Source: Loktanella sp.
GTDB taxonomy: Bacteria > Pseudomonadota > Alphaproteobacteria > Rhodobacterales > Rhodobacteraceae
Direction: 5' to 3'
Length of the DNA stretch: 36,827 nt
NCBI GenBank assembly: GCA_024686085.1
Contig: JAIBDT010000024.1
Span: 1-36,827 of the forward strand
Shown here: positions 13,028 through 28,731 of the stretch, piece after piece
Position numbering within the stretch: the first letter of the stretch is position 1
Layout of the letters: each line of letters begins with the position of its first letter
Translations under genes and position numbers: made by a program
Notes under the pieces: generated by a model
What the model was told of the DNA's origin: nothing
What the model saw: only the letters and a program-made list of their open reading frames with translations
Database searches by the model: none

Positions 13028-13164
13028 GTGGCGGACTCCTTGGCGCGATTACGTTGCCCCTACCCTGCGATATCTGAACCGGACTGAAAAGGGGCTGATA
13101 AGAGGCGGCTTTATTCCGGCCAATACTCGTGCCACAGTGCAACAAAGTTAGCAAAGAGGTGCCT

Positions 13165-14004
13165 ATGTCAAAACCTTGTATTATCTGTGTCGCGATCACT
13201 GGTTCGGTGCCGACAAAGGCAAACAACCCTGCCGTTCCGATTACGATTTCCGAGCAGATTGAAAGCACGCATGAGGCCTTTGGGGCTGGCGCCGCGATTG
13301 CACATTGTCATGTGCGCGATGACGACGGGAAACCGACGCCCGACCCTGAACGCTATGGGCGCTTAAAGGAAGGCATTGAAGCCCACTGTCCAGGCATGAT
13401 TGTGCAACTTTCCACGGGCGGCAGATCGGGGTCGGGGTTGGACCGAGGCGGCATGTTGCCCCTACGTCCCGACATGGCATCCTTGGCTGTTGGGTCCAAT
13501 AACTTTCCCACGCGTGTGTATGAAAACAGCCCTGACTTAGTGGATTGGTTGGCGTCCGAAATGATCAAATATGATGTCATGCCGGAAATCGAAGCCTTTG
13601 ATTTGGGCCACATCGTGCAGGCAGCAAAAATGGCGGCAGACGGGCGACTGAAAAGCCCTCTCTATGTTCAGTTTGTTATGGGCGTGAAAAACGCGATGCC
13701 TGCGGACGAGCGGATTATGGATTTTTACATCGAGACACTTAACCGATTTGCCCCTGATGCGCACTGGTGTGCCGCGGGCGTCGGTCCTGCCCAAATTACC
13801 GTCAACGAATGGGCGATTTCCAAGGGTGGACACACGCGCACGGGGCTAGAAGACAACATGCGTCTTAATCGCGACACGCTTGCCCCCTCAAACGCAGCGT
13901 TGGTCAAACGGGCCGTCGATCTGTGCGACAAATACGAGCGCCCCGTTGCCACTTGGCAGCAAGCGCGCGACATATTGGCCCTGCGTCCGGTTCCGGTCGT
14001 TTGA
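13165..14004 (+). CDS. BKACE-family beta-keto acid cleavage enzyme
   Basis: 279 residues. The ATG at 13165 is chosen because AAGAGG lies six bases upstream and the protein then starts with the family beginning I-I-C-V-A-I-T-G-S. Enzymes of this family (formerly DUF849) are zinc-dependent and condense a beta-keto acid with acetyl-CoA to give acetoacetate and a new acyl-CoA; the lysine-fermentation enzyme acts on 3-keto-5-aminohexanoate. Visible motifs: zinc ligands H-C-H-V-R-D near residue 48, S-T-G-G-R-S-G near residue 90, and the late V-G-P-A-Q-I-T-V. The substrate cannot be read from sequence. The aminotransferase 150 bp downstream suggests an amino-acid-derived keto acid. Confidence 0.85.
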   Translation: MSKPCIICVAITGSVPTKANNPAVPITISEQIESTHEAFGAGAAIAHCHVRDDDGKPTPDPERYGRLKEGIEAHCPGMIVQLSTGGRSGSGLDRGGMLPLRPDMASLAVGSNNFPTRVYENSPDLVDWLASEMIKYDVMPEIEAFDLGHIVQAAKMAADGRLKSPLYVQFVMGVKNAMPADERIMDFYIETLNRFAPDAHWCAAGVGPAQITVNEWAISKGGHTRTGLEDNMRLNRDTLAPSNAALVKRAVDLCDKYERPVATWQQARDILALRPVPVV

Positions 14005-14155
14005 TTGCCGCGACGTTGTGAGTTTCAGGTTACAGAATTCTAGGTCAAGCCTACAGTTAGCAATTGAAAGCGCACTGTGCAGATCATAGAATCTGTGCAA
14101 CCTGCGGTCTTATCTGCCCGCTGTTTTTAAGGCTTTCGCCCACAAGGAGCACGCC

Positions 14156-15535
14156 ATGACTATCCTGAATTCTACCGCTGAAATTCGCGCAGGGGATGCG
14201 GCGCATCACATTCACCCTATGACAAACACACGCGAGCTGAACGAAAAAGGCCCGCGCGTTATAGTGTCGGGCAAAGGGTCTTATGTGACGGATAGTGACG
14301 GCAATAAGATTTTGGATGGTATGGCGGGGCTTTGGTGCAATGCCTTGGGTTTGGGGCGCACAGAGATCGTCGATGCGGTTACCAAACAGTTGCAGGATAT
14401 GTCGTTCTACAACACGTTCTTTAACACAACTCACCAACCCGTCGTTGACCTTGCGAAAGTTTTGTCCGAGGTGACCCCGCCCCAGTTCAATCGCTTTTTC
14501 TTTACGGGATCAGGGTCGGATTCCAACGATACGATTCTGAAATTTGCCGCCTATTATTGGGAACTCAAGGGTGAGCCGCAGCGCAATATCTTTATTGGTC
14601 GCCATGGTGGTTATCACGGCTCGACCGTTGCGTCAGCTGCTTTGGGCGGTTTTGAGGGAATGCACAAGATGAACGGCTTGCCCGTTGGCAATGTGTTCCA
14701 CGCCCCTTCTCCCAACTGGTGGGACTTTGGTGGTGATCTTTCGCGCGAAGAATTCGGCCTGAAGATTGCCAATGACACGCTGTCGATGATCGACGGTATC
14801 GGCGCGAACCGCGTCGCGGCCTTTATCGGCGAACCGATCATGGGTGCGGGCGGCGTGGTGATCCCCCCTGCGACCTATTGGCCGACATTGACCAAGGGCC
14901 TGAAGGAACGTGGCATTTTATTGATTTCCGACGAAGTCATTTGCGGGTTTGGACGTACGGGCAACTGGTTTGGCTGTGAAACATTCGGCATGGAGCCCGA
15001 CTTTATGACGATGGCGAAGGCGCTGACCTCAGGCTATGTGCCAATGGGTGCTGTCGCAGTGTCCGACAAAATCGTCGATCTAATCATCGAAAAGGGCGGC
15101 GAGTTTGCGCATGGCTACACCTATGCAGGTCACCCTGCGGGATGTGCTGCCGCGCTGGCAACAATGAACATATTGCGCGAAGAGGCCATTATTGAGCGCG
15201 TGCGTGATGACATTGGCCCATACCTGCAAAAGAAATGGGCAGCGCTGGCGGACCACCCGCTGGTTGGCGAGGCGCCAATGGTCGGCCTTATCGGGGCGAT
15301 ACAATTAACGGCAGACAAGGTGACGCGCAAGCCTTTCCCAAGCGATGCGGGTGTTGGCATGATTTGCCGCGAGCATAGCTTTAACAACGGGCTAATCATG
15401 CGCGCGGTTGGCGACCGTATGGTCGTGGCTCCGCCGCTTACACTTAGCCATGGTGAGGCCGACGAGATGATTGAAAAAGCAATCCTGACGCTCGACATGA
15501 CTTACGCTGATCTTCAAGCCAAAGGCCTGATGTAG
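14156..15535 (+). CDS. Class III PLP-dependent aminotransferase (omega-amino acid/diamine type)
   Basis: 459 residues, preceded by a good AAGGAG site. Family features: D-S-D-G-N-K-I-L-D-G-M-A-G-L-W-C-N near residue 45, the cofactor-phosphate region F-T-G-S-G-S-D-S-N-D, Y-H-G-S-T, the PLP-ring aspartate in I-S-D-E-V-I-C-G-F-G-R-T-G, and the Schiff-base lysine in T-M-A-K-A-L-T-S-G-Y (about residue 287). Such enzymes move an amino group from omega-amino acids, putrescine or taurine to pyruvate. The W-C-N and F-F-N-T-T-H features fit the omega-amino acid:pyruvate group. The order BKACE then aminotransferase suggests a small catabolic operon. A taurine-like role is tempting given the sulfonate genes downstream, but nothing in the sequence proves it. 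Confidence 0.85.
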   Translation: MTILNSTAEIRAGDAAHHIHPMTNTRELNEKGPRVIVSGKGSYVTDSDGNKILDGMAGLWCNALGLGRTEIVDAVTKQLQDMSFYNTFFNTTHQPVVDLAKVLSEVTPPQFNRFFFTGSGSDSNDTILKFAAYYWELKGEPQRNIFIGRHGGYHGSTVASAALGGFEGMHKMNGLPVGNVFHAPSPNWWDFGGDLSREEFGLKIANDTLSMIDGIGANRVAAFIGEPIMGAGGVVIPPATYWPTLTKGLKERGILLISDEVICGFGRTGNWFGCETFGMEPDFMTMAKALTSGYVPMGAVAVSDKIVDLIIEKGGEFAHGYTYAGHPAGCAAALATMNILREEAIIERVRDDIGPYLQKKWAALADHPLVGEAPMVGLIGAIQLTADKVTRKPFPSDAGVGMICREHSFNNGLIMRAVGDRMVVAPPLTLSHGEADEMIEKAILTLDMTYADLQAKGLM

Positions 15536-15592: not shown

Positions 15593-16690
15593 CTATTTGA
15601 GAGTTGGCCGGAGAGACGTTTGACCAATCTGCGCGAGCGCAATGCTCGTTTCAGTTTTTAAAACGTGCCATAATTCGTGCAGCCCTTCCTCCCCCCCCGC
15701 AGCGATTGCGAATTGGAGAATGCGGCCAAGAAAGGTGAACTCTGCGCCTTGATCAAAGGCTTTGATCACGTCTTCGCCGCTGCGCAGGCCTGAATCGAAA
15801 AAGAGTGGATAGTCTGCCCCGACCGCTGCTTTGATTTCTGACAAGACTGTAATCGGAGCGGGTGCACTTTCCAATTGGCGGGACCCGTGGCTGGACACTT
15901 GGATTGCATCAACGCCTGCGGATTTCAGGGCAACTGCGTCTTCTACGTCTAGCACACCTTTGACGACAAGGTTTCCATCCCACATCTGCCGCAGCTTGGC
16001 CAATGTGTCCCAATTAGCGCGGGATCGGCTTTCCGTGCGATCGAAATCATAGCCATCCATTTCAAAGTTTGCCATTTCGGGACGCCCTTTGAACAAGGTA
16101 TTCAGCGACCAACGGGGATGAAGTGCAAAATCGACGAACTGCCGCGGGCCGATCTTGAAGGGCATGGTAAACCCATGCCGAAGCTCGCGCGGTCTACGCC
16201 CTACCTCGGGCACATCAACAGTCAAAACAAGGGTTTGATAGCCCGCGATTTTTGCCCGATCGACAAGCTTGAATGTTCCTTCACCGTTGCCGCTAAAATA
16301 GAGTTGAAACCATGCGTGGCCTTCGGCGGCCTCGATCAATGGCTCCATCGCGGTGGATGCCACGGTCGACACACCTAACGGGACGTGTTCGCGGGCCGCA
16401 AGGCGCGCCAACATCAAGTCCGCTCCAGGCGCCGATAAATTACACATCCCCATCGGGCTTATGCCGAAAGGTGCTTTTGCGGTGGCCCCGAACAGCGGAA
16501 CGGCAAGCGATCTTTCACTGACATCCCGCAAGATGCGCGGCCGCAGGGTGATGGCGTCAAAGGCTTCGCGATTGCGCGATGCCCCTGTTTCCGCCCCTGC
16601 GGCCCCGTCGATATAGTCGAACACCATCCAAGGCAGACGCTTGCGTGCAAGACGCCGCGCGTCTGCGCTGGAATGGATACCCAAGCCCAT
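15593..16690 (-). CDS. FMN-dependent 2-hydroxyacid dehydrogenase, probable sulfolactate dehydrogenase
   Basis: 365 residues, (S)-2-hydroxyacid oxidase/L-lactate dehydrogenase family. N-terminal F-D-Y-I-D-G-A-A-G (Tyr26), P-M-G-M-C at the FMN, W-F-Q-L-Y-F near 127, T-V-D-V-P near 157, Lys244 in V-V-K-G-V, and the active-site base His268 and Arg271 in S-S-H-G-S-R-Q-L-E are all visible. The usual family string is S-N-H-G-G-R-Q, so the two neighbours of the histidine are altered. It starts one base after the comE stop, as the last gene of the operon. Sulfolactate is a 2-hydroxyacid and must become sulfopyruvate before ComDE can act. I infer this is the sulfolactate-oxidising (SlcD-type) step; lactate or glycolate oxidation is the alternative. 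Confidence 0.75.
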   Translation of the reverse strand: MGLGIHSSADARRLARKRLPWMVFDYIDGAAGAETGASRNREAFDAITLRPRILRDVSERSLAVPLFGATAKAPFGISPMGMCNLSAPGADLMLARLAAREHVPLGVSTVASTAMEPLIEAAEGHAWFQLYFSGNGEGTFKLVDRAKIAGYQTLVLTVDVPEVGRRPRELRHGFTMPFKIGPRQFVDFALHPRWSLNTLFKGRPEMANFEMDGYDFDRTESRSRANWDTLAKLRQMWDGNLVVKGVLDVEDAVALKSAGVDAIQVSSHGSRQLESAPAPITVLSEIKAAVGADYPLFFDSGLRSGEDVIKAFDQGAEFTFLGRILQFAIAAGGEEGLHELWHVLKTETSIALAQIGQTSLRPTLK

Positions 16691-17245
16691 TTAGCTGGCG
16701 ACCGCCTTCATAAACCGGTCACGGATCACAACGGGATCCATTGTGATCACGGGCAATTTGATGTTGCCGCTGTCGCATTTCACGACGATGACGGTCATCT
16801 TTTTGCTGTCGATCGCCGCTTGCAGCGTCTTGCCTGTGTCCACGTCTTTGCACACGACAACGTTCTCACAACCACAGGCTTCGGCCACTTTTTCAAGCTT
16901 GGTTTTCTTACCCGCATAGGTCGGCTGATCGCCGGTGGACCCATAGGACCCATTGTCGATGATCATCAAAATGTAGTTGTCAGCGACGTTATTGGCGATT
17001 GTTGGCAGGGTGCCAAGGTTGGTCAATACAGAGCCGTCACCGTCAATGGAAATTACGGTTTTGTCTTGCGCAAGCGCAAGCCCAAGACCGATAGACGACG
17101 ACAGGCCCATTGTGCCGAGCATGTAGAAGTTTTTAGCGTTATCGTCGATCATATGCAGCTCTTGGCTAGGCAGACCGATGTTACAGACGACCAGTTGGTC
17201 ATGAAGAATTGGCGCGATTTCGCGCAGGATTTCTGAACGGATCAT
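16691..17245 (-). CDS. comE: Sulfopyruvate decarboxylase, beta subunit (TPP-binding)
   Basis: 184 residues from the ATG at 17245, which overlaps the comD stop as ATGA; a GTG further upstream would lie inside comD. ComE provides the thiamine-diphosphate-binding half of the enzyme that decarboxylates 3-sulfopyruvate to sulfoacetaldehyde. The TPP fold signature is complete: G-T-M-G-L-S-S-S-I-G near residue 44, G-D-G-S at 69-72, and N-N-V-A-D-N followed by D-N-G-S-Y-G-S-T-G at 98-106. The length fits the split two-subunit form (the phosphonopyruvate decarboxylase relatives are single chains). Position beside the HpsN homologue strongly favours sulfopyruvate over phosphonopyruvate as substrate. 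Confidence 0.88.
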   Translation of the reverse strand: MIRSEILREIAPILHDQLVVCNIGLPSQELHMIDDNAKNFYMLGTMGLSSSIGLGLALAQDKTVISIDGDGSVLTNLGTLPTIANNVADNYILMIIDNGSYGSTGDQPTYAGKKTKLEKVAEACGCENVVVCKDVDTGKTLQAAIDSKKMTVIVVKCDSGNIKLPVITMDPVVIRDRFMKAVAS

Positions 17246-17748
17246 TGGTCGCCGTAGCCTCCCCAGAAGGACGCATCTGTCAGGATGGCCACAGGTTTGT
17301 TGCACATGAATGTGTATTTCAGGATCGCGTCCAATTCGTCGGCGTCGCTTTCCTTGTGGAAGTGATAAGTCGGGATATTCAACTGGTTGAGCAGTGCCTT
17401 CGTGTGGACCGCCATTTCAACTTGGCAAGCCACAGGTTCGCGTAGTTCCCCACGGTATGAAATGATCATTGGCAAAGGCATACGGTAGTATTGCGTCAGC
17501 GTCGCAAGCGTGTTGATCGTCACACCAATCGCCGTGTTTTGCATGATGATAGCAGGACGTTTGCCACCCATAAAAGCACCGGCGCAGAGCCCCATGCCTT
17601 CGTCTTCTTTGTTTGATGGAATATGGAAAATTTCAGGGCGCGCTTCGACTTCGTCGATCACGCCTGCCAGTTGTTTACACGGAACAGTCGTCACGAATGA
17701 CACGTCATTCGCTACAAGATCGTCCACAATTTTTTTATCGATACTCAA
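17242..17748 (-). CDS. comD: Sulfopyruvate decarboxylase, alpha subunit
   Basis: 168 residues. Translation starts at TTG 17748, six bases after a strong AAGGAG; no ATG is better placed. ComD is the PYR domain subunit. It has V-P-C-K-Q-L-A-G near residue 21, the essential glutamate in N-K-E-D-E-G near 46-51, A-G-A-F-M-G-G-K-R-P-A-I-I-M-Q-N-T and S-Y-R-G-E-L-R-E-P, all hallmarks of sulfopyruvate/phosphonopyruvate decarboxylases. It pairs with ComE, coded immediately downstream with a four-base overlap. In bacteria ComDE serves sulfonate breakdown; in methanogens the same proteins make coenzyme M. There is no sign of the latter here. Confidence 0.88.
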   Translation of the reverse strand: MSIDKKIVDDLVANDVSFVTTVPCKQLAGVIDEVEARPEIFHIPSNKEDEGMGLCAGAFMGGKRPAIIMQNTAIGVTINTLATLTQYYRMPLPMIISYRGELREPVACQVEMAVHTKALLNQLNIPTYHFHKESDADELDAILKYTFMCNKPVAILTDASFWGGYGDQ

Positions 17749-17792
17749 GGGTCGCTCCTTCGGGTGGGGATGAGAGAAATGTCAGATAGATT

Positions 17793-18200
17793 TCAGGTTC
17801 GCAAGACATGCACGGCGCAAGGTGCATGCCGCACGACGCGCGCTGCCGTTGAACCCAGTAAATAGTCGATCAGCCCGGGCTTGTGCGACCCGATTACGAT
17901 GCAATCTACACCGCGATCTTTCGCAACATCAATGATACTGCGACCGCTGTGCCCTTTTACCGTCAAGGCCGTCACATTGGGCATTTCTTGAATGCGGGCA
18001 TTCATTTCGGCGGACGCACGGTCAAAAGCGGCTTGAACAACGCCTTCTTCGAGATACGCACTGACCGATCCTTGGGGCGCTTCGTAAACGTGCAAAGCAA
18101 GGATCGTGCCGCCTTGGTTCAACAGTTTTTCAGCAACTTGCAGACCGCTTGCACCAATCCCGTGATTAAGTGCCATAGGGACAAGAATTTTATCATACAT
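17793..18200 (-). CDS. UspA-type universal stress protein
   Basis: 135 residues from the ATG at 18200, which begins with the family start Y-D-K-I-L-V-P-M; an upstream ATG would run into the preceding gene. The ATP-binding loop near the end reads G-S-H-K-P-G-L-I-D-Y-L-L-G-S-T-A-A-R-V-V-R, close to the G-x2-G-x9-G-S/T pattern. UspA proteins bound to TRAP transporters are known (TeaD with TeaABC in Halomonas), where they tune transport. This one is co-transcribed with a TRAP system, starting one base after the alcohol dehydrogenase stop, so a similar role is plausible. Confidence 0.85.
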   Translation of the reverse strand: MYDKILVPMALNHGIGASGLQVAEKLLNQGGTILALHVYEAPQGSVSAYLEEGVVQAAFDRASAEMNARIQEMPNVTALTVKGHSGRSIIDVAKDRGVDCIVIGSHKPGLIDYLLGSTAARVVRHAPCAVHVLRT

Positions 18201-18201
18201 G

Positions 18202-19182
18202 TTAAGGTTCCAATATGATTTTTGGCGCGGCAACTTTTCCCGCACGGATATCTTCAAAGGCGCGTTGCCCCTGCGATAACGGGCGTCGCTCTGTCCAATC
18301 AAGCGCTCCGAGCCTGCCATCGAAGATGGCGGCCGCAGCATCGCGAAAGTCTTGGGCGGTATAGGTGTAGGTGCCGATGAACGTGATCTCTTGCAAGGTC
18401 ATGCGCCTGACGTCTAACCCACCAGCATCTTCGCCAAGCCCGATATGCATGATCACGCCGCCGGGCGTGGCAAGCGCTGAGGCGGCGGCCCGCGTTGACG
18501 CGTACCCTACCCCGTCTATGACAAGATCGGCCTGCGTAATCGTGTCGGGTGTTACCGTATCAAATCCTTCAATCGCGTCCAGTGTTGCCCGTCTGGTTGC
18601 ATTTGGTTCTGCTACGGTGATCTGGGTCGCCCCAAAGGCCCGCAACGCAAGTGCCGCACCAAGTCCAATCGCGCCACCCCCGATTACATGGCAGCGCGCG
18701 TCTGCGAGAGGCAAACTTAGCGCTTGCACCCCAAGCCGTACCGCATGCCAACCACATGCCAATGGCTCTGCGAGGGCTGCTTTACGCAAAGGCACGTTGT
18801 CTGGAACTGTGACGAGGTTTTCGTCGCTCATCACGACAAGTTCTGCAAACGCGCCCTCTCGCGGCGGCATCGAAATGATCATCCGCTCGGGGCAAAGATT
18901 GTCGCGCCCCGCCAGACAGGCCCGGCATGACCCACAGGTCACCAGCGGGTTGAGTGTGACCCGTTCCCCGTCACGGGCGCCACCGACGATGACCCCTGCT
19001 GCTTCGTGGCCAAGGATCAGGGGCGCCGGTCTGCGATTGTCATGACCGAGATAGGCGTGCATGTCCGACCCACACAGCCCAGAGGCCTTAACCCGAATGA
19101 GGCTTTGCCCCGCCCCAGCAACAGGGTCAGGCATGTCGCGATAAGTCAGTTTTTCAACAGCGTCGTAAACGAGTGCCTTCAT
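18202..19182 (-). CDS. Zinc-dependent alcohol dehydrogenase, probable DHPS 2-dehydrogenase partner
   Basis: 326 residues, medium-chain dehydrogenase family. Catalytic zinc ligands are Cys37 (G-L-C-G-S-D) and His59-Glu60 (L-G-H-E-A-A-G); the four structural-zinc cysteines are 83, 86, 89 and 97. The cofactor motif is G-G-G-A-I-G-L-G. In DHPS-degrading bacteria two 2-dehydrogenases (HpsO and HpsP) are proposed to interconvert the DHPS enantiomers so that the HpsN enzyme can use both. This gene and the SDR next to it would fit that pair, but I cannot say which corresponds to which name. It overlaps the SDR gene by four bases. Confidence 0.82.
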   Translation of the reverse strand: MKALVYDAVEKLTYRDMPDPVAGAGQSLIRVKASGLCGSDMHAYLGHDNRRPAPLILGHEAAGVIVGGARDGERVTLNPLVTCGSCRACLAGRDNLCPERMIISMPPREGAFAELVVMSDENLVTVPDNVPLRKAALAEPLACGWHAVRLGVQALSLPLADARCHVIGGGAIGLGAALALRAFGATQITVAEPNATRRATLDAIEGFDTVTPDTITQADLVIDGVGYASTRAAASALATPGGVIMHIGLGEDAGGLDVRRMTLQEITFIGTYTYTAQDFRDAAAAIFDGRLGALDWTERRPLSQGQRAFEDIRAGKVAAPKIILEP

Positions 19183-19940
19183 TTTGCTGTGTATCCTCCA
19201 TCAACCATCAAGACTTGCCCCGTCACATAGGCAGATGCATTTGAGCATAAGAACAAGAGAGGCCCGTCAATGTCTTCAAGGGCACCGTTTCGCCCAATGC
19301 AGGTTTGAGCAGCGTTGCGAGCTGCCCGTTCGGGGTCCGCAAACACAGGTCCTGTCAGGTCTGTAGGGAAAAAACCCGGACCGATTGCGTTGGCGGTAAT
19401 CCCGTCTGCCGACCAAGCCTCTGCCATAGCGCGTGTCAATTGACCGATCCCTGCTTTTGATGCGCCGTAAGCGATACCCGCCGGAAAGGCGCGTGTCGTT
19501 TGCAGGGACGCAAAATTGACGATCCGGCCCCATCCCTTTGCCTTCATCGCAGGCGCGAAGGCTTGGCTTAGGAAAAACGGAGCCGCAAGATTGAGGTTCA
19601 GCGTGATGTCCCAGCCTTCGGGTGTCACATCGTCAGCCGCTTCGCGCGTATTGATCCCCGCCGCATGGACGACGATATCGGGCGCGCCAAAAGGCTGTGA
19701 TATTTGACGGGCAATCTCATCGAGGCTATCGCGCCGGGAGAGGTCCGCGGCAACGACGGCTGCCGCGGACCCTATTTCATCGGACCAATCCGCCAATGCG
19801 TCCGCTCTTCGAGCGACGCCTACGACTTTCGCACCAGCGGCGGCTAAAACCGTCGCCGCGTGCCGGCCCAAGCCCGCACTGGCGCCCGTGACGCAAGCCA
19901 CCCGTCCGCTGAGGTCAAAAAGTGAGCGAGGGTCATTCAT
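19179..19940 (-). CDS. Short-chain dehydrogenase, probable DHPS 2-dehydrogenase partner
   Basis: 253 residues, classical SDR: T-G-A-S-A-G-L-G cofactor loop, A-R-R after the second strand (suggesting NADP use), H-A-A-G-I-N, catalytic serine in N-F-A-S-L-Q, Y-G-A-S-K, and the closing V-D-G-G-Y. Reading frames on both sides overlap it (HpsN stop upstream, alcohol dehydrogenase start downstream), so it is translated with them. Role in DHPS epimerisation through the 2-keto form is inferred from position between hpsN and the Zn enzyme. Another small hydroxy-compound substrate is possible. Confidence 0.82.
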   Translation of the reverse strand: MNDPRSLFDLSGRVACVTGASAGLGRHAATVLAAAGAKVVGVARRADALADWSDEIGSAAAVVAADLSRRDSLDEIARQISQPFGAPDIVVHAAGINTREAADDVTPEGWDITLNLNLAAPFFLSQAFAPAMKAKGWGRIVNFASLQTTRAFPAGIAYGASKAGIGQLTRAMAEAWSADGITANAIGPGFFPTDLTGPVFADPERAARNAAQTCIGRNGALEDIDGPLLFLCSNASAYVTGQVLMVDGGYTAK

Positions 19941-21240
19941 CGGAGGTCAAATCAAAGGTCTCATCGGGGAAATATTTCGCAAGACGCACATCCGCTGCCC
20001 GCGCATGGCCTTCCATTCCTTCAAGTCGCGAAATCCGTGCGGTTGCCTCTGCAACGCGCTTGGAACCTTCACGGGTGGATTTCTGCCATGTCACAATCTT
20101 CATATACTTGTGGACGGAAAGGCCACCCGTATAACCAGCTGCCCCCGATGTCGGCAGGACGTGGTTTGTGCCTGATGCCTTATCGCCATAAGACACCGTT
20201 GTTTCCTCGCCCAAGAAAAGCGAGCCGTAGCAGGACAATCGGTTAAGCCACCAATCCAAGTCCTCGGCCTGCACTGTCAGGTGCTCTGGCGCGTATTCGT
20301 CCGAGCAGGCGGCCATTTCTTCGCGGTCGGCGCAAACGATGACTTCTGCGTAATCGCGCCAAGCAGCAAAGGCGTTTTCGCGGTTTAGCTCCGGCAGGTC
20401 TGCAATCAAAACAGGTACACGGTCCATAACGTCGCGCGCCAGTGTTTCACTGTCGGTCACCAACCAAACGGGCGAATTATAGCCATGTTCAGCTTGCGAC
20501 ACCAAATCTGTTGCGACGATATGTGGATCAGCCGTTTTATCCGCAAGAACAAGACTATCAGTTGGCCCCGCGATCATGTCGATCCCGACACGCCCGAATA
20601 GAATGCGCTTGGCTTCGGCGACGAATTGGTTTCCGGGACCAACTAGGATGTTCGCCTTTGGCAACCCAAACAGTCCAAATGTCATCGCCGCAACACCCTG
20701 CACACCGCCCAGCGCCATGATCGAATCCGCGCCGCAGATATGCGCGGCATAGACGATCGCCGGCGCAATGCCGACGTCCGGACGGGGTGGCGACGTGGCC
20801 GTGATGTATTTGCAGCCCGCGACTTTCGCCGTGGTGACCGTCATGATCGCACTTGCGATGTGGCTGTACCGCCCCCCCGGCACATAGCAGCCTGCCGCAT
20901 CAACAGGGATCGCTTTTTGACCAGCCACCAGACCTGGTACCACTTCGTATTCGATATCACGCACGGTTGCCATTTGTGCTTGGGCAAAGCGTTTAACGTT
21001 ATCATGCGCAAACTGAATGTCTGCTTTCAGCTTTTCAGGTACAAGCGCGCAGGCTGCGGCGATTTCTTCCTCGGTAAGGATAATGTTGCCTTCATATTTA
21101 TCGAACTTGGCGGCGTATTCGCGCGCTTTATCATCTCCGCCAAGTTCGATGTCGGACAAGATACCTTGCACGATATCATGGACATCAGATGCGCCTGATT
21201 GCGCGGTCAAAGTTGCCTTTTTGAGGTAGTCACGAGCCAT
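19933..21240 (-). CDS. hpsN: Sulfopropanediol 3-dehydrogenase (HisD homologue)
   Basis: 435 residues, full-length histidinol dehydrogenase fold. The four zinc ligands of HisD are kept as Gln249, His252 (S-Q-A-E-H-G), Asp353 (Y-G-D-K-A-S-G-T-N-H) and His412 (M-E-G-H-A-R), and the catalytic pair as Glu319-His320 (Y-A-P-E-H-L). HpsN oxidises (R)-DHPS in two NAD+ steps to (R)-sulfolactate, just as HisD oxidises histidinol to histidine. A true HisD would be expected among his genes. Here the neighbours are a TRAP transporter, two alcohol dehydrogenases and sulfopyruvate decarboxylase, so DHPS is the likely substrate. It starts 12 bp after the large TRAP permease. Confidence 0.85.
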   Translation of the reverse strand: MARDYLKKATLTAQSGASDVHDIVQGILSDIELGGDDKAREYAAKFDKYEGNIILTEEEIAAACALVPEKLKADIQFAHDNVKRFAQAQMATVRDIEYEVVPGLVAGQKAIPVDAAGCYVPGGRYSHIASAIMTVTTAKVAGCKYITATSPPRPDVGIAPAIVYAAHICGADSIMALGGVQGVAAMTFGLFGLPKANILVGPGNQFVAEAKRILFGRVGIDMIAGPTDSLVLADKTADPHIVATDLVSQAEHGYNSPVWLVTDSETLARDVMDRVPVLIADLPELNRENAFAAWRDYAEVIVCADREEMAACSDEYAPEHLTVQAEDLDWWLNRLSCYGSLFLGEETTVSYGDKASGTNHVLPTSGAAGYTGGLSVHKYMKIVTWQKSTREGSKRVAEATARISRLEGMEGHARAADVRLAKYFPDETFDLTSDE

Positions 21241-21252
21241 GAGAAATCCGCC

Positions 21253-22581
21253 TTATTTGTAGATATCGGGAAGCAAAGTTGTCGAGATCGCGGGAACAAA
21301 AGCGATGAGCAATACGACGACCAGCATGAAAAACACGAATGGCACCGCGCGCCATGCGATTTTGAGGATGGACTCTCCGGTGATGCCTGACACGACAAAC
21401 AGGTTCAAGCCAAGTGGAGGTGTGATGAAGCCCACGCCGAGTGCTGTAATCATCATGATGCAGAACTGAATTTCATTCATGCCGATGTTATCCGCGAGCG
21501 GTTTTAGGATTGGTGCCAAAATCACAATATTCGGGGTCGTTTCCATGACGCAGCCCGCGGCAATCAAGATACCGATCATGAGCAAGATCAACAGGGTTGG
21601 GTCGTCGGTCAGTGCTGTGATAGAATAGACGAACCCTTGCGGGACCCCCATGATGGCCAGCGCTTGTGCCAATGGGAGTGAGAACGCGATGATCGGCAAA
21701 ATGATCCCGTTCACCTTTGCAGAGCTCAGCAACATCGCCGGAAAATCTGATAGCTTCAGCGTACCCAGAATAAAGCCGATGATAATCGTCACGATGACGG
21801 CTGTGGCCCCCGCCTCTGTTGGGGTTAGCCGCCCAGAGAAGATGCCGTAAAAGATGATGCCTGGCACGATGAACGCATACCAACCCGATGCAATCGCACT
21901 GCGCAAACCGCTTAGGTATTCAACCAGCGATAGGTTACCGCCACCCTCGTATCCATAAATTCGGTTCACAACGATGTTGGTGATCAGGATCGACGTTAGA
22001 ATCAACAGCCCCGGGATCAGTGCAGCCAAGAACAACGTAGACGCCGATATCCCAAGGACCAATCCGATAATGATATATGCGATGGATGGTGGGATCAAAA
22101 TGCCGGTGCAGGCCCCTGCGGCGACAAGAGCGCATGCATATGGACGCGGATAGCCTGCTTCGACTAATCGGTCGATTGTCATCCGTCCCACAGCGGCCGC
22201 CCCTGCGGCGTCTGATCCTGAGATTGCAGCAAACATGCCGCAGACAAGAACAGTCGCAGACCCGAACCCGCCTTTTGCAAATTGGGTGAGGGCCTCGGCG
22301 ACGTCGAGAAACTTGCGCGAAAGCCCTGTGCGCACCAGCACGTCACCTGTCAGGATGAATAGTGGTACGGCCGTCAACGCGAATGCATCAATACCAGAGA
22401 AAAGGCTCTCGCCCACAAGGGCCAATGGCAAGTCGCCTGACAAATAGAGCATCGCAATCGCCGAGACTCCGATAGAGGCCCAAACGGGGATCGCAAGCGC
22501 GACAAGAACCACAAAAATAATGACTGGAAGGTAGAAATCCCAGCCGAGTTCGACAGCTTGATTGAGTGTATTAAAAAGCAT
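21253..22581 (-). CDS. TRAP transporter large permease (DctM family)
   Basis: 442 residues with about 12 hydrophobic helices, the size and layout of DctM. Family sequences are visible: D-A-F-A-L-T-A-V-P-L-F-I-L-T-G-D near residue 65, G-S-D-A-A-G-A-A-A-V-G near residue 120, I-P-P-S-I-A-Y-I-I-I-G, and F-I-T-P-P-L-G-L-N-L near residue 390. The protein carries the sodium-coupled transport path in the inner membrane. It begins two bases after the small permease stop and is followed by hpsN. In roseobacters the DHPS importer is a TRAP system called HpsKLM; I assign this set to that role by context. Confidence 0.92.
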   Translation of the reverse strand: MLFNTLNQAVELGWDFYLPVIIFVVLVALAIPVWASIGVSAIAMLYLSGDLPLALVGESLFSGIDAFALTAVPLFILTGDVLVRTGLSRKFLDVAEALTQFAKGGFGSATVLVCGMFAAISGSDAAGAAAVGRMTIDRLVEAGYPRPYACALVAAGACTGILIPPSIAYIIIGLVLGISASTLFLAALIPGLLILTSILITNIVVNRIYGYEGGGNLSLVEYLSGLRSAIASGWYAFIVPGIIFYGIFSGRLTPTEAGATAVIVTIIIGFILGTLKLSDFPAMLLSSAKVNGIILPIIAFSLPLAQALAIMGVPQGFVYSITALTDDPTLLILLMIGILIAAGCVMETTPNIVILAPILKPLADNIGMNEIQFCIMMITALGVGFITPPLGLNLFVVSGITGESILKIAWRAVPFVFFMLVVVLLIAFVPAISTTLLPDIYK

Positions 22582-22583
22582 CT

Positions 22584-23105
22584 CTAGCCCGCCTCATCGA
22601 ATAGTTTGTCGCCTTCGTAGGCGGGAGACCCGTTACGCAAGCTTTTAAAGTCACGAGACAGCGATTGAATAAGGCGCACGATCATCAGGGTGAAACCAAT
22701 GGGTACCGCCATCAAAAACCACACGAGGGACACGCGCAGGCCGTGGCTGACGGACCCAAACTCCCATGACACAAGGACGGTCTCGAACGACCAGATCATC
22801 GCCCCGATTGCGACGGCCAGCATGACGACATCGCCCAAGATATAAAGCAGCGTCTTCAGCCGCGGGCTAACGTAATGCATCAGCACATCAATGCGGATGT
22901 GCGCACGTTCCTTGACCGCCGCAGAGGCCCCGATCCATGCAAGATAGATGAAAGAATAGCGAACAATTTCTTCGCCCCAGATCGACGAATATGAGAAGAC
23001 TTCGCGGCGTAACACTTCGACAGCCATTGTGATGACCAGCATCGAATAGAACACTAAAAGCGCCCATTTCTCTGCGTTTCGATCCAAAAGTTTCAGAAAT
23101 TGCAC
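22584..23105 (-). CDS. TRAP transporter small permease (DctQ family)
   Basis: 173 residues with four hydrophobic helices (about residues 14-34, 48-65, 87-108, 127-150). The W-G-E-E-I-V-R-Y-S-F-I-Y-L-A-W-I-G-A-S segment is the DctQ signature. The hydrophilic C-terminus ends with an acidic tail. The subunit partners the large permease encoded directly downstream. It is separated from the binding-protein gene by 94 bp holding a strong hairpin, so its expression is probably lower than that of the binding protein. Confidence 0.9.
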   Translation of the reverse strand: MQFLKLLDRNAEKWALLVFYSMLVITMAVEVLRREVFSYSSIWGEEIVRYSFIYLAWIGASAAVKERAHIRIDVLMHYVSPRLKTLLYILGDVVMLAVAIGAMIWSFETVLVSWEFGSVSHGLRVSLVWFLMAVPIGFTLMIVRLIQSLSRDFKSLRNGSPAYEGDKLFDEAG

Positions 23106-23165
23106 GAGATCACCTCGATTTCAGGCGAACTGATTGGTTCGCATTTGGCGGGACAAAAGGAAGGC

Positions 23166-23192
23166 TGGTGGGCACACCTTGTGTGCCCACCA
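23166..23192 (-). terminator. Intra-operon hairpin between binding protein and permease genes
   Basis: A perfect 12-bp inverted repeat: TGGTGGGCACAC (23166-23177) and GTGTGCCCACCA (23181-23192), with a three-base loop. On the transcribed (minus) strand it is followed by CCTTCCTTTT, a broken T-run. It begins eight bases after the binding-protein stop. This position suits a partial terminator or a 3' stabilising hairpin that keeps periplasmic protein mRNA in excess over permease mRNA. Confidence 0.8.
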
Positions 23193-23199
23193 AGACAAC

Positions 23200-24348
23200 T
23201 TAGGCGTCGTGGACGTAGTAGCGGCCTTGTGTACCGGCGGCTTCTTCCAGTTTCGCGAAGGTATCCATCGACCCTGCAAGCTCTGTTTTGAAGCTGTCCC
23301 ATTCTGGCAATTGGTAGCCGCCAACAGACTGCCATTCAGCAAGCTGATCATCAGACAGCGAATGGAACTCAACGCCTGCTTTGCGCAATTCAGCCATCGC
23401 GTAGTTGCGTGCTGACGGCACTTTTGCAAGGTTTTGGTGTCGCGTAATCTCAGATGCTTCCATGATCCCGTCTTGGACGTCCGCAGGCATCGAATTGAAC
23501 CACTCAAGGTTACAAGAGTAAACTTGGCTGTCAGGCACCGCTTGCGTAAACGTCACGTGGGATAAAATGTCCTTGAAGCCAAAGACGAACAATGCGCCGA
23601 CAGACGGATCAAGTGCATCAGCAACACCCTGCTTGATCGCGGAAGGTGTTTCACCCCAAGCTACGGGCGTCGGGTTCGCGCCGACCAAACGGTAGTACTG
23701 CTGTAGCATCGCAGAGCCGGGAACGCGGAACTTTACGCCGCTCAGATCGCTTGGCGAAAGTACGGCGCCTGCCCCACCTTTGCGGACGGCCACAACGCGT
23801 GGGTCGATGTTGACGTAGAACAATGGCTTGAAACCAGCAGCTTCTACTTTTGGGTTTACTTCGCTGGCCCATGTGTCCGAATGCACCAAGTTGGTGAAAC
23901 GCTGGTTTGAGCCACACAGATACGGCAGGTTGATCAAATCGGTCACTGGCGCAAAAGGCGCAAAGTTAGAGATCGAATGCTGGGCTGCTTGGATGGTGCC
24001 AGACTGTACCTTTTGGACCAGTTCGCCGCCTGCCCCCAATTGACCGCCGGGTGCAAGTTTTACATACACTTTGCCGTTGGTTGCGTTCTGAATGTTTTCT
24101 TTGAGGTCTAGCTGCATGATCGGATAGCTGCGCGTCGCCCCCAGCACATAAGCCGTGGCAATTGTCATCACGTGCTCTGCCGCAGCTTCGCGGTCGCGTT
24201 CTTCATTTGCTGTTTGCGCAGCGGCCTCTGTCGACCAAAGTGAGCCTGCAGCCCCAGCAACAAGAGCTGCGGTAAAGCTGCCCATCCCTGCAAGTTTCAG
24301 AAAATTCCGGCGCTCTGCCGACTTGATTTCGTCGTTGTGCTTTTCCAA
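23200..24348 (-). CDS. TRAP transporter substrate-binding protein (DctP/TAXI-like), Tat-exported
   Basis: 382 residues. The start is TTG at 24348 preceded by GGAGG eight bases upstream; no ATG fits. The N-terminus has a twin-arginine signal, E-R-R-N-F-L-K-L-A-G, then a hydrophobic stretch and A-A-A-Q cleavage region, so the folded protein is sent to the periplasm by Tat. The DctP-type anion-binding arginine region is V-K-F-R-V-P-G-S near residue 190-200, followed by A-L-D-P-S-V-G. By position it should capture DHPS or a related sulfonate. It is the second gene of the operon, 33 bp after the small membrane protein gene. Confidence 0.88.
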   Translation of the reverse strand: MEKHNDEIKSAERRNFLKLAGMGSFTAALVAGAAGSLWSTEAAAQTANEERDREAAAEHVMTIATAYVLGATRSYPIMQLDLKENIQNATNGKVYVKLAPGGQLGAGGELVQKVQSGTIQAAQHSISNFAPFAPVTDLINLPYLCGSNQRFTNLVHSDTWASEVNPKVEAAGFKPLFYVNIDPRVVAVRKGGAGAVLSPSDLSGVKFRVPGSAMLQQYYRLVGANPTPVAWGETPSAIKQGVADALDPSVGALFVFGFKDILSHVTFTQAVPDSQVYSCNLEWFNSMPADVQDGIMEASEITRHQNLAKVPSARNYAMAELRKAGVEFHSLSDDQLAEWQSVGGYQLPEWDSFKTELAGSMDTFAKLEEAAGTQGRYYVHDA

Positions 24349-24381
24349 TGTAGTGTCCTCCCTGGACGGCTGGTGCCACGC

Positions 24382-24555
24382 CTATTTCTTGGCTGCGGCT
24401 TCTTTCCTTAAGATCGCAATCACAAACAAAATGGTTACTGCACCAAGAAGCAGCATCTCCCCCACATCGCTTAGAAATGCTGCATTTGCAGCAGAGCCAA
24501 GCCCTACGTTGACTGCAAAAACAACAAACAAAATGATCGCCCCATATAGCGGCAT
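24382..24555 (-). CDS. 57-residue two-helix membrane protein at the head of the DHPS operon
   Basis: Open frame from ATG 24555 to TAG 24382, preceded by GGAGGG at a good distance. The protein starts M-P-L-Y-G-A-I-I-L-F-V-V-F-A-V-N-V and ends with K-E-A-A-A-K-K. Two hydrophobic helices (about residues 4-20 and 33-48) are joined by a short loop containing an aspartate and a glutamate. It lies between the operators and the binding-protein gene, so it is the first gene of the transcript. I do not recognise a family. It could be an accessory subunit of the TRAP system or a conserved small protein of unknown role. Confidence 0.7.
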   Translation of the reverse strand: MPLYGAIILFVVFAVNVGLGSAANAAFLSDVGEMLLLGAVTILFVIAILRKEAAAKK

Positions 24556-24618: not shown

Positions 24619-24632
24619 TGCAAGCGTTTACA
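24619..24632. promoter_or_regulatory. LacI-family operator 1
   Basis: TGCAAGCGTTTACA matches the general LacI-family half-palindrome pattern TGNAANCGNTNNCA at every fixed position. It lies 64-77 bp upstream of the first gene of the minus-strand operon. It overlaps a possible minus-strand -35 (TTGCAT, 24617-24622) whose -10 would be near TTAGAC about 17 bp on. Binding by the regulator coded at 24708 would block that promoter. Confidence 0.7.
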
Positions 24633-24707: not shown

Positions 24708-25733
24708 ATGAACAAAACGCGCATCACGCCAACGCTACACGACGTCGCCGCTAAGGCAGGTGTTTCGACGGCAACCGTGTCGCGGTGCCTGAACTTTCCC
24801 GACCGTGTGACAGAGCGAACGCGCAACAAGGTTATGGCTGCGGTAAAGGTGCTGGGCTATTCGCCAAATTTCGGTGCCAAAGTCATGGCCGCACGCCGCA
24901 CGAACACCATCGGCGCGATTATCCCGACAATGGAAAACGCTATATTCGCCAGAGGCTTACAGGCCTTTCAAGAAGAGTTGCGACAGCATGGCTTTACGAT
25001 GCTGGTGGCAAGCACCTCTTACAGCGCGGACATCGAAGCAGAGCAAATTCGTGCTCTTGTTGGTCGGGGTGCTGACGCGCTGCTTTTGATTGGTCACGAC
25101 CGCGATCCTGACATCTATGAGTTTCTCGAAACTCAAGGTGTGCCCTCGCTGGTTACGTGGGCCTTCGACCCGAATGAGACCCGCCCTTCCGTTGGCTTTG
25201 ACAACCGCGCGGCGATGCAATCGATGGCTACGGAAGTTTTAAGATTGGGCCATAAAAAAGTCGCCCTCATTTCTGCAATGACCGCCCGCAATGACCGTGC
25301 ACTGGAGCGTTGCAAGGGAATTCAAGACGCTATGGTACTAGCCGGACAACCTACCGAAGACCTGAAAATTATCGAGACCCCCTATGGCATTGAGGAAGGG
25401 GCAGACGCGTTTAAATTATTAATGCAGGCCCCAGAAAAGCCAACGGCTGTGTTTTGCGGCAATGATGTCTTGGCTGTCGGCGCGTTACGGCAGGCCCGCG
25501 ACATGGGAATTAGGGTGCCTGATGACGTCTCAATCATCGGCTTTGACGATATCGAGCTCGCCCAAATCGCATATCCGCCGCTGACGACCGTGCATGTGCC
25601 TCATCGTGAAATGGGGCAGCGTGCCGCGATCGCCTTGGCGGCTATGGTCACGGACGGTGTCCCGCTAAAATCAATAGAGCTTTCCACTCACCCCGTGTTT
25701 CGCGGGACGCTTGGTCCGGTTTGCGCCAAATAG
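24708..25733 (+). CDS. LacI-family transcriptional regulator, probable DHPS operon repressor
   Basis: 341 residues. The N-terminal helix-turn-helix is T-L-H-D-V-A-A-K-A-G-V-S-T-A-T-V-S-R (residues 6-23), followed by the hinge-helix region ending G-Y-S-P-N-F-G. The rest is a periplasmic-binding-protein-like sensor: G-A-I-I-P-T, P-S-V-G-F-D-N, F-C-G-N-D-V-L-A-V-G-A and S-I-I-G-F-D-D-I-E-L are family strands. It is divergent from the DHPS operon with two matching operators in the 152-bp gap. The likely effector is DHPS or a pathway intermediate, by analogy with catabolic LacI proteins; this is inferred. Confidence 0.88.
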   Translation: MNKTRITPTLHDVAAKAGVSTATVSRCLNFPDRVTERTRNKVMAAVKVLGYSPNFGAKVMAARRTNTIGAIIPTMENAIFARGLQAFQEELRQHGFTMLVASTSYSADIEAEQIRALVGRGADALLLIGHDRDPDIYEFLETQGVPSLVTWAFDPNETRPSVGFDNRAAMQSMATEVLRLGHKKVALISAMTARNDRALERCKGIQDAMVLAGQPTEDLKIIETPYGIEEGADAFKLLMQAPEKPTAVFCGNDVLAVGALRQARDMGIRVPDDVSIIGFDDIELAQIAYPPLTTVHVPHREMGQRAAIALAAMVTDGVPLKSIELSTHPVFRGTLGPVCAK

Positions 25734-25736
25734 GTT

Positions 25737-26729
25737 TTACCCCAATTTGATTGTCTGGCCTGTTTCTACAGACTTTACCGCCGCATCCGCCAGTTCCAGC
25801 GCGCGCAAACCGTCAAGGCCCGTGGTCGGAGTCGGCGTTCCGTTCGCAACCGCATCCACAAATGCGGAAATCTCGTTGGCATAGGCGGCCATGTAGCGTG
25901 ACATGAAGAAATTCAGAAGCGGAGGTCGTGTGTAGCCGTCGCTGTTTGCAATTTCGATACGGGACTCGCGATGGTTTTCGGCGGACACTGACCCCATTGA
26001 TCCGTGAACTTCGATCCTTTGGTCGTAGCCATATGTTGCGCGGCGCGTGTTGCTAATCGTGCAGTGCTTTCCGCTTGCTGTGGTCAGAATGACGTTGATG
26101 CTGTCGTAGTCGCCCAAGGCTTTGATCGCAGGATCAGTCAATACTGATGCGGCGGCCTGAACTGTTGCGACCTCTTCGCCCAACAACCAACGCGCCACAT
26201 CGAAATCGTGAATCGTCATGTCGCGGAAAATACCACCCGACCTTTTGATATATTCAGCTGGCGGCGCTCCGGGGTCGCGACTTGTGAGGGTGATCATCTC
26301 GACGTCTCCGATTGCGCCGTCGTCGATTGCCTTCTTGAGCGCAAGAAAGTCAGGGTCGAACCGACGCTGAAAGCCCAACATCAATGTCGCTTTTTCCTGC
26401 TCGACGACTTTGATGCAGTCTTTAACCCGACCAATATCAAGATCGACCGGCTTTTCACAAAACACAGCCTTTCCAGCCCGCGCGAATTGTTCGATCAAAT
26501 CAGCATGGGTGTCTGTGGGGGTACAAATTGCGACGGCATCGATATCAGCGCTTTGCCTGATTTCTTCGATGCTCCGAATATCGCAGCCATATTCATCTGC
26601 AACAGACTTCGCCGCCGCTTCAATTGGGTCGGCAATTGCGACCAATGTCGCAGCCCGAGTGGACGCGACAGCCCGCGCATGAACTTGGCCGATGCGCCCA
26701 GCGCCGAGAATAGCAAAACGAACAGTCAT
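25737..26729 (-). CDS. Gfo/Idh/MocA oxidoreductase, inositol 2-dehydrogenase-like
   Basis: 330 residues from the ATG at 26729, which gives the family start V-R-F-A-I-L-G-A-G-R-I-G and has GGAAGA upstream; 33 codons upstream add nothing conserved. Motifs: Rossmann G-A-G-R-I-G, C-T-P-T-D-T-H, catalytic lysine in C-E-K-P-V-D (near residue 95), G-F-Q-R-R-F-D-P, and D-M-T-I-H-D-F-D-V-A-R-W with the active-site Asp/His. The last fits IolG (myo-inositol to scyllo-inosose). No other inositol genes are near, so it may act on another polyol. It is convergent with the LacI-type gene (3-bp gap) and divergent from the CRP-family gene. Confidence 0.8.
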   Translation of the reverse strand: MTVRFAILGAGRIGQVHARAVASTRAATLVAIADPIEAAAKSVADEYGCDIRSIEEIRQSADIDAVAICTPTDTHADLIEQFARAGKAVFCEKPVDLDIGRVKDCIKVVEQEKATLMLGFQRRFDPDFLALKKAIDDGAIGDVEMITLTSRDPGAPPAEYIKRSGGIFRDMTIHDFDVARWLLGEEVATVQAAASVLTDPAIKALGDYDSINVILTTASGKHCTISNTRRATYGYDQRIEVHGSMGSVSAENHRESRIEIANSDGYTRPPLLNFFMSRYMAAYANEISAFVDAVANGTPTPTTGLDGLRALELADAAVKSVETGQTIKLG

Positions 26730-26871
26730 ATTTTTCTTCCAGTCAATCAGTGCGGGGTTTCCGGCACAGTGCCGCAGGTTTATTGATTTGCATAGCCCTA
26801 GAAACTGGATATCCAGATGCATGTCCAATCCGCGTTTTTAAGTGCAAATAAAATCGATTGGATGTTGCGCC

Positions 26872-27927: not shown

Positions 27928-28731
27928 CTAGTCCGTGGTTGCGTTGAAGACGAACAATGGCTCGCCACCGATTGAATAGCCGTTGATCAGTGCCGCAGCA
28001 CGCGCACCCGTCAGCCATTCTTCAAGAAGCATGGCCAGATCGTTACGAACATGAGAGTTTTTAACAGGGTCTACGGGCAAAAATGCGTATTGGTTGTAAA
28101 GTGCTGGGTCGCCTGAAAATAGTAAACTGAGCCCCTTCTTGTTACCAAAATTCAACCAGCTTGCACGGTCAGCGATAATGTAAGCATTCAGGCCTGCAGC
28201 TGTATTCAAAGCAGCACCCATCCCAGATCCTACGGCCTGATACCAATCGCCATGATCTTGTATGTTCAGGCCGGCGGCGGCCCATAAAGCGCGTTCCGCC
28301 TTATGTGTGCCGCTGTCATCGCCACGACTAACGAAACGTGCCTTGGCGGTCGCAATATTGGTCATCGCGTCAATCACATTCGCAGCCCCATTGATACCTG
28401 CTGGGTCCTCAACAGGTCCGATGATCACAAAATCATTGTACATGATCTCGCGCCGATGTGTCCCGTAACCTGCCGTGACAAAGGCCTCTTCTGCCTCTTT
28501 TGAATGGACCAATACTGCATCCACATCACCCGCTGCGCCTAGCTTGAGGGCTTGCCCGGTTCCCACAACCAAAAGCTGCACATCAAGATCAATGTCGGTT
28601 TTAATTGCGGGCAGCAAAACGTCTGCCAAGCCCGAATTTTCGAACGATGTTGTCACTGCCAACCGCATGTTATCTGCGGAACTGACCTGAGCCCAAAGCA
28701 GTGCTATGGCTACCAGTAAAAATCGGTTCAT
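27928..28731 (-). CDS. tupA: Tungstate ABC transporter substrate-binding protein
   Basis: 267 residues with a signal peptide (hydrophobic residues 4-18, cleavage after V-S-S-A). TupA-family anion-binding loops are seen in V-T-T-S-F-E-N-S-G-L near residue 28 and V-S-R-G-D-D-S-G-T-H-K near residue 135. The first loop of TupA normally reads T-T-T-S-T; here phenylalanine replaces the second threonine, so ligand preference between tungstate and another oxyanion needs care. Last gene of the tup operon, overlapping the ATPase gene by four bases. Tungstate would serve a tungsten enzyme such as an aldehyde or formate oxidoreductase. Confidence 0.85.
   Translation of the reverse strand: MNRFLLVAIALLWAQVSSADNMRLAVTTSFENSGLADVLLPAIKTDIDLDVQLLVVGTGQALKLGAAGDVDAVLVHSKEAEEAFVTAGYGTHRREIMYNDFVIIGPVEDPAGINGAANVIDAMTNIATAKARFVSRGDDSGTHKAERALWAAAGLNIQDHGDWYQAVGSGMGAALNTAAGLNAYIIADRASWLNFGNKKGLSLLFSGDPALYNQYAFLPVDPVKNSHVRNDLAMLLEEWLTGARAAALINGYSIGGEPLFVFNATTD

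Follow-up and report, generated by a model that had tools for sequence, protein, structure and literature searches.

An eleven-gene block of Loktanella sp. is very probably a roseobacter DHPS operon of the Xsc branch and includes a small protein gene tied to the transporter

2,3-Dihydroxypropane-1-sulfonate (DHPS) is a sulfur compound of worldwide abundance that passes from phytoplankton to bacteria (PMC11131964; here and below, statements on published systems refer to the available excerpts of the cited papers). HpsN converts (R)-DHPS to (R)-sulfolactate, and HpsO and HpsP convert the two enantiomers to sulfolactaldehyde (PMC11131964). In Ruegeria pomeroyi DSS-3, the locus hpsRKLMNOPQ-slcD (SPO0590–SPO0598) encodes a LacI regulator, a tripartite ATP-independent periplasmic (TRAP) transporter, HpsN, HpsO, HpsP, the UspA-type HpsQ and SlcD (PMC4334477). 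An hpsK mutant of this strain shows a growth yield on DHPS reduced by 78.6% (PMC10130141). In the Xsc-branch clusters of Jannaschia sp. CCS1, Ruegeria sp. ANG-S4 and Granulosicoccus antarcticus, described by the gene set hpsNOP-slcD-comDE-xsc, HpsNOP, SlcD, ComDE and Xsc take DHPS through sulfoacetaldehyde to acetyl phosphate and sulfite (PMC11382572). Here we analyze a stretch of 36,827 nucleotides from Loktanella sp. (assembly GCA_024686085.1, contig JAIBDT010000024.1, our C107; hereafter the window), part of a 2.99-Mb draft genome that is 91.4% complete, for a putative operon of this kind.

Eleven minus-strand open reading frames (ORFs) span positions 15,593 to 24,555 in the order smp-hpsK-L-M-N-O-P-Q-comD-comE-slcD, and a LacI-type gene, hpsR, is divergent from them (Table 1). 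We conclude that the block is very probably the Xsc-branch variant of the roseobacter DHPS operon. A preliminary description of the window had claimed eleven tightly packed genes on one strand, and all were recovered as ORFs at those positions, with junctions that are mostly overlaps or gaps below 50 bp; it did not include hpsR. Its family calls (DctP, DctQ, DctM, histidinol dehydrogenase family, short-chain dehydrogenase/reductase (SDR), zinc-dependent alcohol dehydrogenase, Usp, sulfopyruvate decarboxylase alpha and beta, FMN_dh) agree with our Pfam and NCBIfam profile searches. Junctions were computed from ORF coordinates and start codons, taking 18,200 as the start of hpsQ (the ORF from 18,341 is an in-frame extension) and 17,245, not the listed ORF start 17,305, as that of comE.

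Table 1. Features of the DHPS block and its upstream region, with each junction given to the next gene of the block
Feature	Position	Strand	Basis	Junction to next gene
hpsR: LacI-family regulator, divergent	24708..25733	+	LacI-family NCBIfam matches, none over cut-off	
operator-like palindrome TGCAAGCGTTTACA, hpsR-smp intergenic	24619..24632		pattern search	
smp: 57-aa two-helix protein	24382..24555	-	matches no Pfam or NCBIfam family	gap 33 bp
hpsK: DHPS TRAP substrate-binding protein, DctP family	23200..24348	-	TTG start in this reading; PDB match 24gc	gap 94 bp, sole gap >50 bp
13-pair hairpin, hpsK-hpsL gap	23165..23193	-	folding of gap	
hpsL: TRAP small permease (DctQ)	22584..23105	-	PF04290 103 bits	gap 2 bp
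hpsM: TRAP large permease (DctM)	21253..22581	-	PF06808 295 bits; TIGR00786 over cut-off	gap 12 bp
hpsN: (R)-DHPS 3-dehydrogenase to (R)-sulfolactate	19933..21240	-	PDB matches; His127, Glu319, His320, Asp353 present	overlap 8 bp
hpsO: SDR (R)-DHPS dehydrogenase	19179..19940	-	8wwf match; Gln147 kept	overlap 4 bp
hpsP: Zn-dependent (S)-DHPS dehydrogenase	18202..19182	-	8wwd match; His59 kept	gap 1 bp
hpsQ: universal-stress-type protein	17793..18200	-	PF00582 81 bits; UspA after hpsP also in R. pomeroyi	gap 44 bp
comD: sulfopyruvate decarboxylase alpha	17242..17748	-	TTG start; TIGR03845 150.3 bits, cut-off 147.95	overlap 4 bp
comE: sulfopyruvate decarboxylase beta	16691..17245	-	TIGR03846 249.8 bits, cut-off 221.5	gap 0
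slcD: FMN-dependent sulfolactate dehydrogenase (putative substrate)	15593..16690	-	PF01070 386 bits	

The layout of this operon is already published, and the Loktanella block belongs to the published system. Compared with R. pomeroyi, in which the shared genes follow the same locus-tag order (PMC4334477), comDE is inserted here between hpsQ and slcD; R. pomeroyi has been assigned the CuyA route instead (PMC11382572). Compared with the Jannaschia CCS1-type clusters (PMC11382572), whose published gene diagrams were not part of the comparison, xsc lies here on another contig, beside taurine-type genes. The hpsRNOUP-suyAB cluster of Cupriavidus pinatubonensis shares the conversion of DHPS to sulfolactate by HpsN, HpsO and HpsP, but combines it with uptake by a major facilitator superfamily transporter and direct cleavage by SuyAB, whereas we find TRAP uptake and an SlcD-ComDE-Xsc route (PMC11382572). 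By ComE, the closest named loci belong to Yoonia, Loktanella and other Rhodobacteraceae, which points to a roseobacter, probably a Yoonia-like one.

Comparison with solved structures points to DHPS for both uptake and oxidation. HpsK scores 638 bits against 24gc, labeled "DHPS TRAP transporter", and 77 bits against its next best solved relative; together with HpsL and HpsM, of the DctQ and DctM families, it makes up a TRAP transporter whose binding protein is of the DHPS type. HpsN scores 751 bits against the (R)-DHPS dehydrogenase 8wwe (residues 2–407) and 519 against the sulfopropanediol 3-dehydrogenase 8v35, the best HisD structure reaching 261, and it carries the sulfonate-reading histidine (His127). 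The SDR and zinc-dependent alcohol dehydrogenase, to which the preliminary description gave no role, are by sequence HpsO and HpsP: HpsO scores 425 bits against 8wwf, and HpsP 459 against 8wwd (next best 105). Residues reported to set substrate choice (PMC11131964, PMC11382572) are retained in all three enzymes, namely His127 and Asp353 of HpsN, Gln147 of HpsO and His59 of HpsP. The earlier proposal of DHPS uptake followed by oxidation through sulfolactate and sulfopyruvate to sulfoacetaldehyde is the best reading.

For the second half of the route, both ComDE subunits exceed the curated NCBIfam cut-offs and are encoded side by side; ComE also scores 71 bits against PF02775. SlcD belongs to the FMN-dependent 2-hydroxyacid dehydrogenase family and contains the active-site His-Gly-x-Arg (SHGSR at residue 267). 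Its nearest solved relative is the (S)-mandelate dehydrogenase 6bfg, and the similarity runs through a stretch that we take to be the membrane-binding segment of 6bfg. The FMN enzyme that the preliminary description had placed between sulfolactate and sulfopyruvate corresponds to the published gene slcD, with sulfolactate as the presumed substrate. FMN-dependent 2-hydroxyacid dehydrogenases use L-hydroxyacids, and L-3-sulfolactate is (R) when the priority rules are applied. For these two reasons, the listing of SlcD as an (R)-sulfolactate dehydrogenase (PMC11131964) fits. Elsewhere in the genome, a PF02615 gene (C32; 266 bits) could be ComC.

The preliminary description had expected Xsc and a sulfite exporter elsewhere in the genome, and both are found on contig C94. 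The xsc gene (C94:33596-35338) scores 891.7 bits (cut-off 676.4). On one side, it is accompanied by a TauE-type gene (PF01925), a phosphotransacetylase-type gene (PF01515), an acetate-kinase-type gene, a second TauE and a molybdopterin/iron-sulfur/DmsC-type trio that fits SoeABC. The other side holds a MocR-type regulator (over the PdxR model cut-off) as well as an aminotransferase and further genes, which fit Tpa and tauABC, respectively. These Soe, Tpa and Tau names are assigned by family and gene order, those of the TauB- and TauC-like ORFs without a family scan. As for other exits, we take PF04295 as a proxy for SuyB and TIGR01275 for CuyA. No PF04295 match occurs in this genome, while 5 of 14 control genomes are positive, and the single TIGR01275 match reaches 27.4 bits (cut-off 289.4). 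By these proxies, neither SuyAB nor CuyA was found as an exit route. Among the desulfonating enzymes looked for in this incomplete genome, Xsc is the only one found.

The grouping of these genes was examined in the best 80 of 309 loci found with ComE as the query, a set that favors close relatives. An ortholog was counted at a minimum of 45% identity over at least half its length (at least 25 residues for smp), so that diverged copies are missed. Where there is room upstream, hpsN is present in 68 of 72 loci and hpsN, hpsO and hpsP together in 50 of 72. Room on both sides is available in 70 loci; of these, slcD is found in 43/50 with hpsNOP and in 1/20 without. Since hpsNOP accompanies comE this often, and slcD accompanies hpsNOP, the grouping is not due to chance. 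In the genus, counting the own genome, xsc and comE exceed their cut-offs in 53 and 40 of 56 genomes, respectively. HpsN-like proteins with an E value of at most 1e-150 occur in 47 of the 56, 39 of which have a copy of at least 82% identity.

To be weighed against the DHPS operon is the idea that the HpsN-like gene encodes a histidinol dehydrogenase, in a cluster for histidine or polyol metabolism. HpsN does pass the TIGR00069 hisD cut-off (442 bits, cut-off 243.8), SDR and zinc-dependent alcohol dehydrogenase genes are common in polyol operons, and for HpsO, 6le3, which bears the name gluconate 5-dehydrogenase, trails 8wwf only slightly (410.5 bits). However, the genome holds a second histidinol dehydrogenase family gene at C101, which outscores HpsN as HisD (545.5 against 447.9 bits) and has a tyrosine where HpsN has the sulfonate-reading histidine. 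The preliminary description had named as refuting the case that the HisD homologue of the block is the only histidinol dehydrogenase in the genome, and this case does not apply. On the second gene, the 751 bits of HpsN to 8wwe against at most 261 to any HisD, and the sulfonate-reading histidine, we reject HpsN as a true HisD. With HpsK matching a DHPS binding protein, we give this explanation a negligible probability. Alternatively, the operon might serve mainly imported sulfolactate, with SlcD-ComDE-Xsc as its core route. SlcD and ComDE indeed act on sulfolactate and sulfopyruvate, and in 11 of the 72 comE loci with room, hpsN occurs with neither hpsO nor hpsP detected. Nevertheless, we hold this to be very unlikely, as HpsK matches the DHPS binding protein far better than its next solved relative (638 against 77 bits) and as the operon includes hpsN, hpsO and hpsP, whose products retain the residues linked to DHPS. 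These eleven loci (L023, L033, L042, L047, L052, L053, L055, L060, L081, L082, L088) show no slcD, L042 ending too soon to tell; they would represent a shorter variant, which would need another sulfolactate dehydrogenase. It is also highly improbable that the FMN enzyme, located downstream by happenstance, is just a common dehydrogenase of L-lactate, glycolate or mandelate. The names of its NCBIfam and PDB matches (lactate, mandelate, glycolate enzymes) suggest this, but all NCBIfam lactate models stay below their cut-offs (250.2 against 376, 217.6 against 550, 138.3 against 645.5 bits). Moreover, slcD abuts comE, travels with hpsNOP-comDE across genera (the 43/50 against 1/20 above) and comes after hpsQ in R. 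pomeroyi (PMC4334477).

Several points speak against the DHPS operon of the Xsc branch as we read it. The DHPS route in Loktanella sp. is known here from genes alone, and the putative SlcD owes its name to gene order rather than to comparison with a biochemically tested SlcD. ComE does not match the strict GDG...N[NDH] thiamine-diphosphate pattern and reads GDG...IIDN. The operon contains no sulfolactaldehyde dehydrogenase (GabD-2), which is needed after HpsO and HpsP; the rest of the genome was not searched for one. As the draft is 91% complete, failure to find SuyAB or CuyA does not prove their absence. The promoter scan gave 7 sites against 6.4 in shuffles, i.e. no excess, and found no minus-strand promoter in the hpsR-smp gap. 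Finally, hpsKLM is present in only 17 of the 62 comE loci with room, TRAP genes being absent from many that have the same enzymes, and hpsK in only 18 of the 56 genus genomes; the DHPS enzymes are commoner than the HpsKLM transporter. In two of the non-TRAP loci (L019 and L029), no transporter gene was recognised directly adjoining the enzyme genes, from ORF starts only and without a family search.

Taken together, the genes of this genome make up a consistent, nearly complete path that leads from DHPS to acetyl-CoA and sulfite. HpsK would bind DHPS in the periplasm and HpsLM would import it, perhaps with Smp as an accessory subunit. HpsN would oxidize (R)-DHPS to (R)-sulfolactate, while HpsO and HpsP would convert (R)- and (S)-DHPS to sulfolactaldehyde. 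SlcD, probably membrane-bound and passing electrons from its FMN to the respiratory chain, would turn (R)-sulfolactate into sulfopyruvate, which ComDE would decarboxylate to sulfoacetaldehyde. Xsc, encoded on the other contig with a phosphotransacetylase gene at the same locus, would then yield acetyl phosphate and sulfite; the phosphotransacetylase would make acetyl-CoA, and sulfite would be exported by the TauE proteins or oxidized by the SoeABC-like enzyme. In the absence of DHPS, HpsR would repress the operon. Gene identity, gene order and the xsc locus come from sequence, and the activities of HpsN, HpsO and HpsP and the uptake by HpsKLM from literature on relatives; we infer the substrate of SlcD, the regulation, the role of Smp and a single transcript for the eleven genes.

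While the rest of the operon belongs to the published system, Smp is a new lead. This small membrane protein, which seems to lack an annotation, goes with the DHPS transporter and could be informative about the architecture of TRAP transporters. Among 295 family genomes, smp is present in 58 of the 60 with hpsK (E 1e-60 or better) and in none of the 235 without. Both surveys were taken to cover the same 295 genomes, those without a match being named only in part, and the hpsK survey scored the best 6 first-look candidates per genome, so that some copies may be missed. In the two remaining hpsK genomes (G234 and G142), another small hydrophobic ORF occupies the same place; that of G142 resembles Smp by eye only. 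All 30 loci read, out of the 58, have hpsK directly downstream of smp, with alignment ends 36–75 bp apart, and smp is found in all 18 TRAP-bearing loci of the first comE set. The median pN/pS against the window is about 0.35 over 76 comparisons (uncorrected and ungapped; some genomes are represented twice among the 78 smp records). NVxLG and GEMLxL are conserved, and AlphaFold2 predicts a two-helix hairpin with a predicted local distance difference test (pLDDT) score of 94.7.

In the R. pomeroyi locus, tags pass from SPO0590 (hpsR, the LacI-family regulator) to the neighbouring SPO0591 (hpsK) with no gene between, in the place held here by smp (PMC4334477, as excerpted); smp, if present there, seems to be unannotated. 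Searches of open-licence papers, mostly through listings and the openings of abstracts, did not turn up Smp. We see an even chance that Smp is an unrecognised fourth membrane component of the roseobacter DHPS TRAP transporter; it may contact HpsL/HpsM or make the transporter more stable.

The N-terminus of HpsK reads ERRNFLKLAG, which resembles a twin-arginine export signal; the solved chain of 24gc aligns from residue 45 on. Analysis of the hpsK-hpsL gap showed that the hairpin listed in Table 1 has counterparts, with a stem of at least 9 pairs in 16/19 gaps, stem length having no control. The window gap folds at a z-score of -4.5 and the other gaps at -1.2 to -4.0 (from base shuffles, with tblastn alignment ends as gap ends). 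This suggests unequal expression, with more HpsK than permease, and is compatible with one primary transcript.

Divergent hpsR occurs in 55 of the 80 comE loci. Sites within 3 mismatches of TGTAAGCGCTTACA, 97 in total, are present in 56/56 hpsR-hps intergenic regions, the window's included, often as two sites about 22 bp apart. A one-mismatch site lies about 60 bp before the own xsc. We scanned 300 bp before 54 xsc genes from 53 genomes (one with two copies), grouped by whether comE exceeds its cut-off. Sites scoring at least 11.8 were found in 3/41 regions from comE genomes (own and 2 of the other 40; the own site, which prompted the scan, is counted) and in 0/13 without comE, against a background of 0.3% of masked background pieces and 0.06% of shuffled upstream regions. 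The group of 13 is not clean, since G027 has hpsK, hpsN and a comE fragment, and the groups do not differ (Mann-Whitney p 0.34). Genome-wide, with one mismatch allowed, the control pattern gave 8 forward matches and the operator 5. Control of xsc by HpsR as a general rule was rejected, the site being unconserved in the genus; it is at most a local trait.

HpsN paralogues were also seen near xsc. In two congeners without comE over the cut-off, such a gene (L241:4128-5423 and L242:3648-4952, both minus strand; 67–69% identical, sulfonate-reading histidine kept) closes a tauABC-like operon; xsc, regulator and tpa-like genes lie alongside, these neighbours being named by resemblance to L091. A similar spacing of about 8 kb between paralogue and xsc appears, from coordinates only, in G004, G005, G025, G028, G039 and G045. 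The L241 and L242 paralogues might act on isethionate or sulfoacetaldehyde.

Convergent with the operon end, a class III aminotransferase and a BKACE-family gene lie at 13129-15535, the latter passing the NCBIfam cut-off for 3-oxoadipate:acetyl-CoA acetyltransferase; a sulfatase-family gene follows at 11378-13027. A place for the aminotransferase and BKACE genes in the pathway is unsupported, their homologues occurring in 3 and 2 of the 80 comE loci, respectively (28–41% and 29–30% identity). On the other side, a myo-inositol 2-dehydrogenase gene (over the iolG cut-off) at 25737-26828 adjoins hpsR, and several other genera have a homologue with 51–53% identity in their comE locus. Further on, a TupA-like substrate-binding protein (under the TupA cut-off) and a binding-protein-dependent permease at 27928-30133 perhaps form a tungstate ABC transporter.

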